A stretch of DNA of 62,203 nucleotides from IMG/VR virus record IMGVR_UViG_3300008117_000089, positions 1-62,203 of that record. One strand, written 5' to 3'. This DNA is from a virus. Both the position numbers and the translations under genes were made by a program. A model generated the notes under the pieces. That model saw only the letters and a program-made list of their open reading frames with translations, was not told the DNA's origin and searched no databases. Positions 25,775-31,560 of this stretch are shown here, piece by piece; within the stretch, counting starts at the first letter, position 1; every line of letters starts with the position of its first letter.

Positions 25775-27486
25775 TAACCTTTAAGAAAGTACGCTGGCGT
25801 AATTTTCTAAGCACTGGCGACTGCTTTACCGAAGTGCAACTGAATCGTTCCCACACCACTTTGATTGTTGGTGATAACGGTGCTGGCAAATCTACTATCC
25901 TTGACGCGATATCGTTTGCTCTTTTTGGAAAGCCTTTCAGGAACGTCAAGAAAGACCAGTTGGTTAACAGCATCAACAACGGTAAGACTGTCGTTGAGTT
26001 GGAGTTTGCTATCGGCTCGAAAGAGTATATGATCAAGCGTGGAATCAAACCAGCAGTGTTTGAGATTTACCAGGACGGTGTTTTGGTAGACCAGAATGCT
26101 GCGGTCCGTGAGTACCAAGAGTATCTCGAAGACAACATCCTGAAGATGAATCAGAAATCTTTTGCCCAGATCGTTGTCATTGGATCCGCTTCCTATGTTC
26201 CGTTCATGCAACTTACCGCTGCACATCGAAGAGAAGTGATCGAGGATCTCCTTGACCTTCAGGTATTCAGCACCATGAACACACTTCTGAAAGAGCGAAT
26301 CTCTCAGAACAAACAGGACATTCAATCTACAGATCACAGCATCATGCTGGCTCAACAATATATCAAGTTAGTCAACGACAACCTAGAAGCCATGAAACGT
26401 TTTGATGGTGAGAGCATCACCAAGCTTCAACAGAAGATTGACCAGGAAACCGAGAAAGCCAAAGATAAGATTCGATATGTTGACGAGATGAGGGGTAGGA
26501 TTGCTCAGATCAAAGAAAGCCACAGTGAACGCTCAAGAATTGAGGGTGCTGCTAGGAGTGCCAGAGAGTATCAGAACAAACATGCACGGATAGCATCAAA
26601 ACTGCAAAATGAAGTTGAGTTCCTGGAAAAGCATGTTGATTGTCCGACCTGTAAGCAAAATATCACAGAAGAGTTTAGGGCAAACACTATCAAAGAAAAA
26701 GAATCTATTATTATGGAGTCTATTTTAGAGATGGAAAAATGTGACCATGTGTTCGACAAAATCGAAGACGATCTGAATCGATTTATTGAGGATGATAATG
26801 ATATCGCTGCTATGGAAGCTTCGATTCATAATACGACTTTTGAAGCAAAGACCCATGCCAAGCTTGCCCAGACTTACATGACCGAGATGGATAACATCAA
26901 GAATAGAACTTCTGTGGATCCAGTCGCTGAGTCACAGGCTAAAGCAAAAGAAAAAGAGTTGGCAGATCTTATTGAAAACAAGAAACAGATATTGAAAGAT
27001 AAAGACACTCTTGAGACCGCATCACTTCTTCTCAAAGACGGTGGCATCAAAGCTAAGATTATCAAGCAGTATGTTCCTATCATGAACAAGCTGATCAACA
27101 AGTATCTTGCATCGATGGACTTCTTTGTCCAGTTTGAATTGGACGAGAACTTCAGCGAGACCATCAAGTCCAGGTTCCGTGACGAGTTCAGTTATGCATC
27201 ATTCTCTGAAGGTGAGAAGACCAGAATCGATCTGGCACTACTTTTCACCTGGAGAGCCATTGCCAGAATGCGTAACTCAACCACAACAAATCTGTTGATT
27301 CTGGACGAGATCTTCGATGGTGCTCTGGATAGTAGTGGTACGGACGAGTTCCTAAAGATCATCAATACCATCGATGGTGACAACAATACTTTCGTTATCA
27401 GCCACAAGACAGACCAGATGTACGATAAGTTCCACAGCATTATTAAGTTTGAGAAGTACAAATCATTTTCAAGGATTGCAGCATGA
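25771..27486 (+). CDS. 46: Recombination ATPase subunit gp46 (Rad50-like)
   Basis: 571 residues (T4 gp46: 560). Walker A GDNGAGKS (34-41), a long heptad region broken by the zinc-hook CPTC (about 291-294), the ABC signature SFSEGEKTRIDLAL (about 476-489) and Walker B LLILDEIFDG (about 508-517). SMC/Rad50-type architecture is complete. It forms the nuclease complex with gp47. The 3' end overlaps the deformylase gene by 4 bases. Confidence 0.94.
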   Translation: MITFKKVRWRNFLSTGDCFTEVQLNRSHTTLIVGDNGAGKSTILDAISFALFGKPFRNVKKDQLVNSINNGKTVVELEFAIGSKEYMIKRGIKPAVFEIYQDGVLVDQNAAVREYQEYLEDNILKMNQKSFAQIVVIGSASYVPFMQLTAAHRREVIEDLLDLQVFSTMNTLLKERISQNKQDIQSTDHSIMLAQQYIKLVNDNLEAMKRFDGESITKLQQKIDQETEKAKDKIRYVDEMRGRIAQIKESHSERSRIEGAARSAREYQNKHARIASKLQNEVEFLEKHVDCPTCKQNITEEFRANTIKEKESIIMESILEMEKCDHVFDKIEDDLNRFIEDDNDIAAMEASIHNTTFEAKTHAKLAQTYMTEMDNIKNRTSVDPVAESQAKAKEKELADLIENKKQILKDKDTLETASLLLKDGGIKAKIIKQYVPIMNKLINKYLASMDFFVQFELDENFSETIKSRFRDEFSYASFSEGEKTRIDLALLFTWRAIARMRNSTTTNLLILDEIFDGALDSSGTDEFLKIINTIDGDNNTFVISHKTDQMYDKFHSIIKFEKYKSFSRIAA

Positions 27487-27992
27487 TATACAAGCTTTTA
27501 CCCGAAAATCACGAAATGCTGTTTCAAGAGATGCAAAAATTTGATTTTGAAAATCCACCCTGCGACCCAGAGCAGCTGGCACTCGATCTGATCGAAACTA
27601 TGAGAGCCAACCAGGGAATAGGCTTATCTGCAAATCAAGTTGGTTTACCCTACCGTGTTTTTGTCATGGAAGGTAGCCCAGCATTCGTATGCTTCAATCC
27701 AAAAGTCGTGGCGGTCAGCTCTGGACTTGCCAAGATGCAAGAGGGTTGTTTATCCTACCCAGACTTTTGGATTGACATTAAACGCCCACACACGGTTAAG
27801 GTTCGTTTTACTACCCCATCTGGTACTACCACAACCAAGACCTTTGATGAGTGGCACTGTCGATGTTTCCTACACGAACTAGACCACCTGAACGGAACCC
27901 CGTTCTACAAAAACGCAACTAATATGCAAATAGAAGCTGCCCGTAAACTCCGTACTAAAATAACCCGAAACAAGAAAAGGATGCTAAAATGA
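27483..27992 (+). CDS. def: Peptide deformylase
   Basis: 169 residues with the three hallmark motifs: GIGLSANQ (45-52), EGCLSYP (87-93, metal ligand C89) and HELDHLNG (131-138, H131, E132, H135). It removes the N-formyl group from new proteins. Phage deformylases are usually compact like this one. It is embedded between 46 and a GroES-like gene with 4-base overlaps on both sides, so it is expressed with recombination genes and not with the virion genes. All catalytic residues are present. Confidence 0.93.
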   Translation: MIYKLLPENHEMLFQEMQKFDFENPPCDPEQLALDLIETMRANQGIGLSANQVGLPYRVFVMEGSPAFVCFNPKVVAVSSGLAKMQEGCLSYPDFWIDIKRPHTVKVRFTTPSGTTTTKTFDEWHCRCFLHELDHLNGTPFYKNATNMQIEAARKLRTKITRNKKRMLK

Positions 27993-28276
27993 ATGAACTA
28001 GCCAGAATGAATCATGTATTCCCGCTACACAAGCGTATTTTAATCAAAGCAAATGACGTACAAACCAAAACGCTTTCTGGTATCATAGTTGAAAGTGGTA
28101 CGGGTGATGAATCTCGAACCGCAACTGTGATCGAGTGTGGACCTGATGTAGAGCACGTCAAGCCAGGATACACCATCTATATCATGTGGACGAAAGCCTT
28201 ACCCGTCAGAATCAGTGGGCTAGACTATTCATTCATCAATGAAGAAGACGTTGTTGCAATTCTGGATAAGGTGTGA
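27989..28276 (+). CDS. GroES-like co-chaperonin (functional analogue of T4 gp31)
   Basis: 95 residues, the length of bacterial GroES (97). FPLHKRILIKANDVQTKTLS, SGIIVESGTG (mobile-loop position, with the hydrophobic GII triad), ATVIECGPDVEHVKPGYTIYI and INEEDVVAIL match the Cpn10 pattern. Phage co-chaperonins such as T4 gp31 pair with host GroEL to fold the capsid protein. Unlike gp31, this one is GroES-like in length and the mobile loop is recognisable. It overlaps the deformylase gene. Confidence 0.85.
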   Translation: MNELARMNHVFPLHKRILIKANDVQTKTLSGIIVESGTGDESRTATVIECGPDVEHVKPGYTIYIMWTKALPVRISGLDYSFINEEDVVAILDKV

Positions 28277-28860: not shown

Positions 28861-28936
28861 GCTGTCTTAGCTCAGTCGGTAGAGCACCTGCCTTGTAAGC
28901 AGGATGTCGTGAGTTCGATTCCCACAGACAGCACCA
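28861..28936 (+). tRNA. tRNA-Thr (anticodon TGT)
   Basis: Acceptor GCTGTCT / AGACAGC, anticodon arm CCTGC-CTTGTAA-GCAGG and T-arm GAGTTCGATTC are present, with an encoded CCA end (28934-28936). It reads ACA. Confidence 0.95.
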
Positions 28937-28939
28937 AAT

Positions 28940-29013
28940 GCGTCCATAGTTTAACGGTAAAATGTGATCCTTCCAAGTTCAGGTCGTGGGTTCGACTCCC
29001 ACTGGACGCTCCA
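28940..29013 (+). tRNA. tRNA-Gly (anticodon TCC)
   Basis: Acceptor GCGTCCA / TGGACGC, anticodon loop CTTCCAA with one T-T mismatch in the anticodon stem, T-arm GTGGG-TTCGACT-CCCAC, and encoded CCA. It reads GGA. Confidence 0.93.
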
Positions 29014-29019
29014 AACGAA

Positions 29020-29027
29020 CATAAATA
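29020..29027 (+). promoter_or_regulatory. Late-promoter-like box CATAAATA
   Basis: One base from consensus, 23 bases before the methyltransferase start codon at 29050, directly after the tRNA-Gly gene. It would make the methyltransferase a late gene. Confidence 0.4.
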
Positions 29028-29049
29028 CTTGACAATATTAGGAATTATT

Positions 29050-29685
29050 ATGTTATCCTTTAGTCAATTTATTAATGAAGAAACAAAACTTAACAACACC
29101 AGGAAAACCCAGGTAGCCACCACTGGTGGAACCTACGAGAAGACTGGTGTATATTTGAGTGATAAGCTTGAACCGAAGTCTAAGATTATTAGCATCGGTG
29201 CTGGTTTAGATCACACAAAGAAAGCATTGATGAAAGGTCTGGGTAAAGGTTATGTTGTTCATGACCACGAACCAAACCCAGAAGGACGTAAAGAAGCACC
29301 AGAGTATACAAACGCATCTAAGATACCAAAGAATGGTTATGATGCAGCAGTTTGCCATAATGTGTTGAATGTTGTAGAACCAAATGTTAGAGAGCATGTA
29401 ATGCACTCCATATTCAACTCCATTAAGGAAGGTGGACACGCTATTATCGGCACACGAAAGTGGAAAGGTGATATCGAGAAGAACAAGAATTCTGAACCCG
29501 CTGAAGAAAAGAAAGCGATGTGGGTTAAGAAAGGTTCTGAAAGATCCTACCAAAAAGGGTTTGATGGTGATGAACTGAAAGACTATGTTCATGACTATGC
29601 GAAAAGAAACGGACACCAGGTTGAGGTTAAAAAGTTAACTGGTATCGCAGCTTCTGGTGTTCATGTTAAGTTATTAAAAAAATAG
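29050..29685 (+). CDS. SAM methyltransferase-like protein with capsid-targeting-like N-terminus
   Basis: 211 residues. ATG 29050 has GGAAT upstream; any longer reading would run into the tRNA-Gly gene. The N-terminus MLSFSQFINEE resembles the T4 capsid-targeting peptide, with an I-N-E gp21 site. Then a class I methyltransferase-like core: KIISIGAGLDHTKKALMKG (motif I, GAG), VVHDHEPNPEG, AAVCHNVLNVVEPNVREHVM and EGGHAIIGTRKW. The substrate is unknown. It sits between tRNA genes with a late-like box upstream. If the peptide is functional, the enzyme would be packaged in heads and injected. Confident in the fold, moderate on packaging. Confidence 0.65.
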   Translation: MLSFSQFINEETKLNNTRKTQVATTGGTYEKTGVYLSDKLEPKSKIISIGAGLDHTKKALMKGLGKGYVVHDHEPNPEGRKEAPEYTNASKIPKNGYDAAVCHNVLNVVEPNVREHVMHSIFNSIKEGGHAIIGTRKWKGDIEKNKNSEPAEEKKAMWVKKGSERSYQKGFDGDELKDYVHDYAKRNGHQVEVKKLTGIAASGVHVKLLKK

Positions 29686-29688
29686 TAC

Positions 29689-29776
29689 GCGCCTGTAGAG
29701 GAATTGGGAGACTCTCTGGATTTAGGTTCCAGCGTCCGAAAGGGCACTGTCGGTTCGACTCCGACCAGGCGTACCA
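29689..29776 (+). tRNA. tRNA-Leu (anticodon TAG)
   Basis: Class II tRNA with long variable arm, anticodon arm CTGGA-TTTAGGT-TCCAG, discriminator A and encoded CCA. It reads CTA. It begins 3 bases after the methyltransferase stop. Confidence 0.93.
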
Positions 29777-29777
29777 T

Positions 29778-29806
29778 TTGATTAACAATAAGTTTTATGA
29801 TATAAT
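29778..29806 (+). promoter_or_regulatory. Sigma70-type promoter inside the tRNA array (TTGATT-17-TATAAT)
   Basis: -35 TTGATT at 29778-29783 and -10 TATAAT at 29801-29806, between tRNA-Leu and tRNA-Arg. It can supply the downstream tRNAs and tmRNA independently. Confidence 0.7.
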
Positions 29807-29813
29807 AAGTTAT

Positions 29814-29890
29814 GCGCTCGTAGCTCAACTGGATAGAGCAACGGACTTCTACTCCGTTGGTTGTGGGTTCGACTCCTACCGAGTGCGCCA
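29814..29890 (+). tRNA. tRNA-Arg (anticodon TCT)
   Basis: Acceptor GCGCTCG / CGAGTGC with one G-U pair, anticodon arm ACGGA-CTTCTAC-TCCGT, encoded CCA. It reads AGA. Confidence 0.95.
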
Positions 29891-29898
29891 AATTATAT

Positions 29899-29975
29899 CG
29901 GAGTATAGCACAGCTTGGTAGTGCGCTTGCTTTGGGAGCAAGAGGTCCAAGGTTCGAATCCTTGTACTCCGACCA
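29899..29975 (+). tRNA. tRNA-Pro (anticodon TGG)
   Basis: Acceptor CGGAGTA / TACTCCG, anticodon arm CTTGC-TTTGGGA-GCAAG, encoded CCA. It reads CCA codons. The C1-G72 start is usual for bacterial tRNA-Pro. Confidence 0.95.
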
Positions 29976-29981
29976 ATTTAC

Positions 29982-30057
29982 GGGTCCATAGCTCATCTGG
30001 GAGAGCGCCAGCTTTGCAAGCTGGATGTGGTCGGTTCGAGTCCGACTGGATCCACCA
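29982..30057 (+). tRNA. tRNA-Ala (anticodon TGC)
   Basis: Acceptor GGGTCCA / TGGATCC with the G3:U70 pair that AlaRS recognises, anticodon arm CCAGC-TTTGCAA-GCTGG, encoded CCA. It reads GCA. Confidence 0.95.
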
Positions 30058-30059
30058 AA

Positions 30060-30146
30060 ATGCGTGGATGTGCCTAAAGCACATGTACCCAAGTAGCCCT
30101 AATTGAACAGGTGAACGAGGACTTGGAATTAACCGAGGGCGCGCAA
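30060..30146 (+). ncRNA. Unassigned structured RNA candidate between tRNA genes
   Basis: This 94-base stretch between tRNA-Ala and tRNA-Ser has no T-arm and no CCA. The ends pair (TGCGTG / CGCGCA), followed by a perfect 6-bp hairpin ATGTGC-CTAAA-GCACAT. CCAAGT pairs with ACTTGG and GCCCTAATT with AATT plus AGGGC in a crossing arrangement, so a pseudoknot is possible. It may be a stable small RNA comparable in position to the T4 species 1/2 RNAs in its tRNA cluster, or a decayed tRNA. Confidence 0.4.
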
Positions 30147-30151
30147 TTTAA

Positions 30152-30243
30152 GGAAGTGTGGCAGAGCTTGGTTTAATGCACCTGACTTGAAATCAGACGA
30201 TCCTGAGAAGGATCCGTGGGTTCAAATCCTACCACTTCCGCCA
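30152..30243 (+). tRNA. tRNA-Ser (anticodon TGA)
   Basis: Class II tRNA with a variable-arm hairpin (GATCC-TGAGAA-GGATC), anticodon loop CTTGAAA, acceptor GGAAGTG / CACTTCC, discriminator G and encoded CCA. It reads TCA. Confidence 0.94.
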
Positions 30244-30257
30244 ATAAGAGGTATACA

Positions 30258-30383
30258 ATGGAAAAGCAAGTATTAACTGAAGTAACACCACCAGGTGAAG
30301 AAACTGAAAAGACCGACAAGGAACTTATTCAAGAGATCGTTGAAGCCACAAGTGACCTTCACGATCTCGACTACGCGAAATAA
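30258..30383 (+). CDS. Small acidic protein within the tRNA array
   Basis: 41 residues, MEKQVLTEVTPPGEETEKTD followed by a helical EIVEATSDLHDLDYAK ending. It is acidic throughout, with no Cys and no membrane segment. AAGAGG lies 6 bases before the ATG. It fits exactly between tRNA-Ser and tRNA-Met: the next tRNA begins at the base after the stop codon. Function unknown; the tight placement and good ribosome binding site argue that it is real. Confidence 0.6.
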   Translation: MEKQVLTEVTPPGEETEKTDKELIQEIVEATSDLHDLDYAK

Positions 30384-30459
30384 GTGCCTATAGCTCAACG
30401 GTTAGAGCAGAGGACTCATAATCCTTTGGTTCTAGGTTCGAATCCTAGTGGGCGCACCA
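30384..30459 (+). tRNA. tRNA with CAT anticodon (Met, possibly Ile2)
   Basis: Acceptor GTGCCTA / TGGGCGC with G-U pairs, anticodon arm GAGGA-CTCATAA-TCCTT, T-arm CTAGG-TTCGAAT-CCTAG, encoded CCA. CAT may be elongator Met or, if C34 is lysidinylated, Ile for ATA. A separate TAT-anticodon tRNA at 30811 makes Met somewhat more likely. Confidence 0.9.
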
Positions 30460-30468
30460 ATACTTAAA

Positions 30469-30475
30469 CTAAATA
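30469..30475 (+). promoter_or_regulatory. Late-promoter-like box CTAAATA before the tmRNA
   Basis: It lies in the palindromic context AAACTAAATAGTTTA, just upstream of the tmRNA acceptor piece. It may be a late promoter or part of the tmRNA 5' structure. Confidence 0.3.
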
Positions 30476-30543
30476 GTTTATATGGTTGTATGAAGGAACG
30501 AGAAGGTTTCTTGGACACGGGTGCAAATCCCGTCTGCTCCACC

Positions 30544-30571
30544 AAAAATGTTTTCTGAGTAAAATATTTTT
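30544..30571 (+). other. Intervening-segment hairpin of the permuted tmRNA
   Basis: AAAAATGTTTT (30544-30554) pairs with AAAATATTTTT (30561-30571), 11 bp with one G-U, loop CTGAGT. It joins the CCA end to the 5' G of the other piece and would be removed in maturation. Confidence 0.7.
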
Positions 30572-30660
30572 GATGGGGCAGTTTCAGATTCGACAGGGAA
30601 AGATATCCGACTGGACAACCAGTGAGGCGACTGACTCAATCAGCGCAAACCAAAGTAATC

Positions 30661-30699
30661 GCAAATGACGATAACTACATTCAGGCACTTGCTGCTTGA
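30661..30699 (+). other. tmRNA tag-peptide reading frame
   Basis: From the resume codon GCA to TGA the frame encodes ANDDNYIQALAA. The ANDxNY start and ALAA end match bacterial proteolysis tags that are recognised by ClpXP and related proteases. Confidence 0.88.
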
Positions 30700-30810
30700 T
30701 CCAACTGTTCTTCCGAGTGGGTTTCTCAACGGAAGTGGTCGTCCTCTCCAGTAGAGGGCTATCAAAAGCATATTGACTTAGTATGTTTTTGATAACAGGA
30801 TAAGCAATTT

Positions 30811-30900
30811 GGTTCTCTAGCATAATGGTAATGCACCGAGCTTATACCTCGCACTCCAGATTAGAGGGTTATACAGGTTCAAGTCCTGTGAGAACCACCA
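30811..30900 (+). tRNA. tRNA with long variable arm and apparent TAT anticodon
   Basis: Acceptor GGTTCTC / GAGAACC, T-arm ACAGG-TTCAAGT-CCTGT and encoded CCA are clear. The anticodon stem CGAG/CTCG encloses CTTATAC, giving TAT (Ile, codon ATA). The variable region contains a CTCC/GAGG hairpin, normal for Leu, Ser or Tyr tRNAs but not Ile. The D-arm is short. Identity is therefore uncertain. Confidence 0.75.
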
Positions 30901-30907
30901 GAAACAT

Positions 30908-30982
30908 GCGCGATTAGCTCAGCGGTAGAGCAGTGCCTTTACACGGCGAAGGTCGGGGGTTCGAACCCCTCATTGCGTACCA
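30908..30982 (+). tRNA. tRNA-Val (anticodon TAC)
   Basis: Acceptor GCGCGAT / ATTGCGT with G-U pairs, anticodon loop TTTACAC, T-arm CGGGG-GTTCGAA-CCCC region, encoded CCA. It reads GTA. The outer anticodon-stem pairs are weak. Confidence 0.92.
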
Positions 30983-30985
30983 AAT

Positions 30986-31061
30986 ACGGGTGTGATGGAA
31001 TGGTATACGTATCAGACTTAAAATCTGAGTTTTGTGGGTTCGAGTCCCACCACCCGTACCA
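30986..31061 (+). tRNA. tRNA-Leu (anticodon TAA) with short variable region
   Basis: Acceptor ACGGGTG / CACCCGT is perfect; the D-arm TGATGGAATGGTATACG resembles tRNA-Leu; anticodon arm TCAGA-CTTAAAA-TCTGA; encoded CCA. The variable region is only GTTTT, whereas tRNA-Leu normally has a long arm. It reads TTA. Confidence 0.9.
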
Positions 31062-31074
31062 CAATAAATAAAGA

Positions 31075-31560
31075 ATGGCTATGTTTGATTATAAAACAAA
31101 AATTAATTTTGAAGAAGTAAAAGCTTACATAGAAGCCAATCCAAACTCAAAACTTTATATCGGCTGTGACTCTGAACGAGTTATAATCAAAGATGTTTGG
31201 TATGCTGATTACGCATCTGTTATTGTTGTCCACATTGGTGGTCGCCACGGTTGTCGTGTATTTGGTCAAGTAGATCGTGAGCGCGATTATGATCAAAACA
31301 AAGGTCGCCCACGTATGCGTCTGATGAACGAAGTTATTAAAGTGGCTGAACTATACATTAACCTTGGGAAAACCCTGGGTGAAGATTTTGAGTGCGATGT
31401 TCACCTTGACATTAACCCGAATGAGATTTATGGATCTTCTTGCGTTGTCCAGGAAGCTATTGGATACATTCGTGGTATGTGTAATGTCATACCGATGGTC
31501 AAACCACAGGCATGGGCTGCTACCCACTGTGCAGACCGTCTAAAAGAACTTCGCGCTTAG
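31075..31560 (+). CDS. RNase H-like protein (YkuK-type)
   Basis: 161 residues from ATG 31075; ATG 31081 is an alternative. The segment SKLYIGCDSERV (first catalytic-type Asp), the beta strand SVIVVHIGGRHGCRVFG and CDVHLDINPNEIYGSS (further Asp) match the YkuK-like RNase H-fold family. A nuclease role is inferred from the fold; a substrate is not known. It begins 14 bases after the last tRNA gene, so it may share its transcript and could act in RNA turnover. A late-like AATAAATA lies at 31063-31070. Confidence 0.65.
   Translation: MAMFDYKTKINFEEVKAYIEANPNSKLYIGCDSERVIIKDVWYADYASVIVVHIGGRHGCRVFGQVDRERDYDQNKGRPRMRLMNEVIKVAELYINLGKTLGEDFECDVHLDINPNEIYGSSCVVQEAIGYIRGMCNVIPMVKPQAWAATHCADRLKELRA

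Follow-up and report, generated by a model that had tools for sequence, protein, structure and literature searches.

Why should a T4-like phage carry a gene for a ribosome-rescue RNA that is split into two pieces, and does such a gene belong to the phage or mark its host? The question is raised by a 62,203-base virus record, the whole of which is called the window here, for which a preliminary description had proposed a phage-encoded, circularly permuted tmRNA with a complete tag and alanine identity at 30480-30800. The gene is real and complete and lies in that interval on the plus strand; its actual span is about 30484-30790. ARAGORN calls a permuted tmRNA at 30452-30790 (+) with the tag ANDDNYIQALAA, and both Rfam covariance models match above their cut-offs, in the kind of check that had been suggested: RF04321 at 30484-30699 (125.9 bits, cut-off 47, E 3e-24) and RF01850, beta_tmRNA, at 30450-30764 (98.4 bits, cut-off 84, E 1e-28), the latter alignment extending in the 3' part to 30764 with some non-standard pairs. 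Beta is the best-scoring of the older Rfam subtypes. The predicted fold of 30475-30800, computed without pseudoknots, is much more stable than those of shuffled sequences (z = -5.2). The terminase large subunit, tail sheath, portal, major head protein and DNA polymerase encoded on the contig match PHROGs and provide the T4-like context that makes the gene phage-encoded, as claimed, and the same tmRNA gene is present in two more IMG/VR contigs of this phage (L157 and L158). It sits between tRNA-Met and tRNA-Ile of a phage tRNA array (ARAGORN), and its parts are as follows.

28861-31061 (+): tRNA array in the order Thr, Gly, Leu, Arg, Pro, Ala, Ser, Met, tmRNA, Ile, Val, Leu (ARAGORN, Rfam)
30484-30516 (+): 5' part of the acceptor piece, P2/linker strand up to GGAC (RF04321 alignment); identical in the sister phages L263 and L246
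30517-30533 (+): T-arm of the tRNA-like domain, ACGGG-TGCAAAT-CCCGT, with G at loop position 55 (sequence, model alignment)
30534-30544 (+): acceptor 3' strand CTGCTCC (30534-30540), discriminator A and encoded CCA (to 30544)
30545-30574 (+): AT-rich intervening segment of 30 nt, predicted to be removed, with a hairpin of 11-12 bp (predicted fold)
30575-30581 (+): GGGGCAG, the acceptor 5' strand, with which the coding piece is predicted to begin (sequence, model alignment)
30582-30594 (+): D-region with TTCGAC at its end (30589-30594; model alignment)
30595-30660 (+): P2 3' strand, next stem and pre-tag segment, with GTAATC directly ahead of the resume codon (model alignments)
30661-30699 (+): tag reading frame with resume codon GCA at 30661, ANDDNYIQALAA and stop TGA at 30697-30699 (ARAGORN, sequence)
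30700-30790 (+): hairpin-bearing 3' domain of the coding piece (RF01850 to 30764, predicted fold)

The acceptor (3') part precedes the 5' part, with the CCA end at 30544, the GGGG start at 30575 and the predicted spacer hairpin between them, which agrees with the arrangement first described. P2 is formed by GGTTG (30484-30488) with CAACC (30616-30620). The acceptor strands GGGGCAG and CTGCTCC pair at 7/7 positions, including G3:U70 (G30577:U30538), which bears out the alanine identity, and the GCA resume codon, the tag and the stop are all intact, so that the tag is indeed complete. The intervening segment is identical to that of the sister phages at 27 of 29 aligned positions, and the 3' domain, which ends in an A/T-rich hairpin at about 30761-30793 according to the fold, differs from theirs at 5-7 of 91 positions, including one compensatory pair in L246. 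Judged from its sequence, the window tmRNA is very probably functional. At the upstream end of the array, an open frame that weakly matches a methyltransferase (28909-29685) begins inside tRNA-Thr; its true start probably lies after tRNA-Gly.

The tag of the window comprises 12 residues and ends in ALAA, a ClpXP-type signal. Tags ending in AA, mostly in LAA, are found in 105 of the 112 unique ARAGORN calls of the viral set. The VKANDSYYNQALAA tags that ARAGORN prints for L263 and its kin were discarded in favour of the alignment, which reads ANDSYYNQALAA, and the odd tags printed for six other loci (L384, L390, L276, L298, L336 and L254), in which the usual ending is absent, are interpreted as the result of an error in the frame or a very long spacer, or as forms without a tag. 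At T-loop position 55 the window tmRNA has a G (TGCAAAT), whereas all 11 window tRNAs have the usual TTC. About two in five of the unique viral permuted tmRNAs (L002-L404) share this G, which recurs in several tag families; the same triplet is GGC in the alpha consensus, TTC in the beta consensus and TGC in the window. G3:U70 is invariant across the viral set, a regularity that the search patterns partly imposed and that is hence not independent evidence.

The distribution of the gene among related phages was followed from the array-flanking gene at 31075-31560, which encodes an RNase H-like protein (PF04308). A tmRNA is present in 21 of 50 whole records picked as relatives, most of them chosen by this shared gene and four fetched via their tmRNA, and in 6/6 of those longer than 150 kb, none of which is among the four; most of the tmRNA-less records are fragments. 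All seven related isolates that were tested and have an RNase H-like gene of more than 42% identity contain a permuted tmRNA, namely the Stenotrophomonas phage DLP6, Xanthomonas phage X1, Synechococcus phage BUCT-ZZ01, Rhizobium phage RHph_I1_18, Phaeobacter phage MD18 and the Ruegeria/Roseobacter phages DSS3P8 and RpAliso, and in 0/7 is a tmRNA feature annotated at the place. When only the 6 kb around homologous RNase H-like genes were searched with ARAGORN, tmRNAs were found solely in contigs of the window's own phage, which suggested a patchy, recent acquisition; this was overturned by the whole-record searches. No tmRNA was found in Vibrio phage VH7D, whose homolog of the flanking gene is a distant one, or in two marine cyanophages, and thus T4-like phages do not generally need one. 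Within the clade, the tmRNA is an old and mostly unannotated component. L159, the closest relative as judged by the flanking gene, showed no tmRNA in its record of 68,986 bases, which is a fragment.

Several observations were made alongside this survey. The tRNA array of L159 includes a GOLLD RNA (RF02032, 198.6 bits, L159:1848-2322). Xanthomonas phage Rb1 (PQ569993.1, L345:2473-2901) has an unannotated permuted tmRNA with the tag ANDDNFRPALRLAA. The Brevundimonas phages Kabachok and Kikimora (L353 and L354, from 1469) each have a weak, unannotated permuted tmRNA (57 bits) that ARAGORN missed, with a TGCGAAT T-loop close to that of the window.

Whether the gene marks the host can be judged from its divergence. 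Distance in the tmRNA is correlated with distance in the RNase H-like protein (Mantel r=0.77, p=0.0001, n=23), also when the alphaproteobacterial isolates are left out (r=0.66, n=19) or when two divergent records and every isolate are (r=0.61, n=14); therefore, the gene keeps to the lineage of the phage and marks the host poorly. The window and G052 (the phage to which L355 belongs) form a sister pair both in the protein tree and in the tmRNA tree, the latter made from phage sequences; their tmRNAs are nearer to each other than their proteins suggest. The tRNA arrays of the window and L263 are a mosaic, with Thr and Ala identical, Pro at 76/77, Gly at 41/74 (55%) and several others 55-80% alike, which indicates that parts of the array move by recombination. 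Taken together, these comparisons suggest that the gene belongs to the clade and diverges along with its phages, local exchange taking place inside the tRNA arrays.

A recent capture of a host ssrA, by which the gene would reveal a betaproteobacterium or a relative as host, would be in line with the beta subtype and with the tmRNA-less record of L159, and the preliminary description had likewise expected a hint at the host group. However, the tmRNA of this clade occurs in phages of Gammaproteobacteria, Alphaproteobacteria and a cyanobacterium and co-diverges with a phage protein, so that the expected hint does not hold and recent capture is improbable. The own ssrA of Gammaproteobacteria such as Stenotrophomonas and Xanthomonas (Xanthomonadaceae) has the one-piece form. 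One genome scan with the acceptor helix of the window returned only two bacterial genomes, both MAGs, which were dismissed as donors because their RF04321 scores of 37.7 and 34.8 bits, under the cut-off, are chance or too weak, and a plasmid search gave no match. A different role is conceivable for a tRNA-like RNA that titrates host SmpB as a decoy or inhibitor, as proposed for the RNA of mycobacteriophage DS6A, which consists of the tRNA-like domain (TLD) only; a molecule like the DS6A TLD inhibits tmRNA strongly (PMC4131195). The intact reading frame, resume signal and stop of the window tmRNA, together with the degradation end of the tags that is kept across the viral set, make such a role very improbable here. 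That the gene is a decaying, non-functional relic is hardly credible, given its compensatory changes, intact tag and full-length model match; the one feature that might point to decay, the unusual T-loop, is common to many viral tmRNAs.

The remaining alternative concerns the tRNA-like domain and is compatible with a functional phage gene. In the comparison with L263 and L246, 17 of the 44 positions of this domain differ, against 25-27 of 262 in the rest of the tmRNA, which makes the domain about four times more diverged, an excess with p of about 5e-6 to 1e-5 (5e-6 for 25/262) in a post hoc comparison of one lineage. Nevertheless, 12/12 acceptor and T-stem pairs are kept, five of them through double compensatory changes, and none is broken. 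In a set of 603 viral tmRNA pairs that diverge by 5-25%, many of them related and hence not independent, the window pair has the largest domain excess; the domain is usually the more conserved part and exceeds the rest in only 122 pairs. The outgroup L261 shares the acceptor helix and TTC loop of the sister, and the window is therefore the changed one. The changes fall into two tracts on either side of the conserved spacer, which disfavours recombination of a single tract. No donor of the changed domain was found, the nearest known domain matching at 38/47 positions, and two-tract recombination with an unsampled tmRNA could produce the same pattern; in addition, the window and L263 do not differ in tRNA-Thr or tRNA-Ala. 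Remodelling of the domain by selection, through the AlaRS, SmpB or EF-Tu of a new host or through escape from a nuclease directed against host tmRNA, is a possible but less probable reading, and would make the window tmRNA a variant for counter-defence or host adaptation. The fuller proposal, that the domain was remodelled apart from the rest of the RNA in response to these host factors or to a tmRNA-disabling nuclease and that phage tmRNA is a replaceable counter-defence part, is doubtful.

The preferred reading, to which we assign a probability of roughly 0.8, is that of a functional phage gene for a beta-type two-piece tmRNA that supplies ribosome rescue in infection and has long been part of the clade, with local exchange. 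Its anatomy, its clade-wide occurrence and its structure-preserving change are observed, and the following steps would follow by analogy with established tmRNA biology. A precursor would be transcribed together with the neighbouring tRNAs and then cleaved by the tRNA-processing enzymes of the host; a promoter scan of the array gave fewer sites than shuffled sequences. The acceptor piece, ending with CCA at 30544, and the coding piece, beginning at 30575, would be held together by the acceptor and P2 helices and charged by host AlaRS via G3:U70. Host SmpB and EF-Tu would then bring the tmRNA to stalled ribosomes, translation would resume at GCA 30661, append ANDDNYIQALAA and stop, and the tagged product would be degraded by ClpXP. 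A search for SmpB found none in the window, which is itself a 62-kb fragment with a partial gene set, in the other contigs of its phage or in the relatives covered (16 + 4 records, including tmRNA-carrying isolate genomes titled complete), and therefore a host partner would be needed; SmpB, AlaRS and ClpXP are presumably borrowed from the host. Peptide deformylase and GroES-like (Cpn10) genes adjoin the tRNA array (27483-28276), which would fit a phage module serving the synthesis and quality of proteins.

The phage would thereby gain extra ribosome rescue in infection, most likely as a supplement to host trans-translation. The most economical reading of this benefit is that ribosomes stalled on broken mRNA would be freed; resistance to a host defence that damages tmRNA would fit the changed domain and is unproven.

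Phage tmRNAs of such a kind were known already, and what is new is the clade-wide retention of the two-piece form, together with the anomalous divergence of the tRNA-like domain in the window. Their rarity in phages had been overstated in the preliminary description: the study of phage Melnitz in 2022 counted 402 phages with tmRNA and 133 unique structures, 53 of them two-piece and 50 of the 53 marine or aquatic (PMC9004378), 79 phage tmRNAs are in the tmRNA database (PMC11915505), tmRNA together with SmpB has been reported in huge phages (PMC7162821), and about 100 unique permuted viral tmRNA calls were obtained here from two IMG/VR pattern scans and a few related records. The window tmRNA shares with the RF04321 and RF01850 families the order of the halves, the CCA, G3:U70, TTCGAC, the resume codon and a tag ending in ALAA, and differs from them in its phage tRNA array, its T-loop TGC and its 12-residue tag. 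Like the ssrA of Melnitz and other marine or aquatic phages, it is permuted, is carried by a T4-like myophage and has a lineage that is not simply that of the host; the Melnitz type is alpha-like and has a glutamine riboswitch, whereas the window gene is beta-like and lies inside a tRNA array, and no riboswitch was matched in the window with Rfam.

Also comparable are the Stenotrophomonas phage tmRNAs, those of DLP6 and of the Marzo/IME-SM1/Moby group. DLP6 is a relative of the window phage and has a permuted tmRNA too, which is unannotated and encodes ANDDSFAPMAIAA in place of ANDDNYIQALAA, and the Marzo tmRNA was classed as beta (PMC8928761). A further comparison is with the tRNA arrays by which phages have been proposed to evade anticodon nucleases (PMC10264068): there too the phage supplies translation RNAs, possibly replacing damaged host ones; unlike these tRNAs, tmRNA has no anticodon, and the change in the window lies in the T-arm, acceptor and D-region. 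A split ribosome-rescue RNA is thus standing equipment, mostly unannotated, of a broad T4-like group with very different hosts, and a host should not be guessed from it. DLP6, X1, RpAliso and MD18 offer cultured test cases for why phages carry it.
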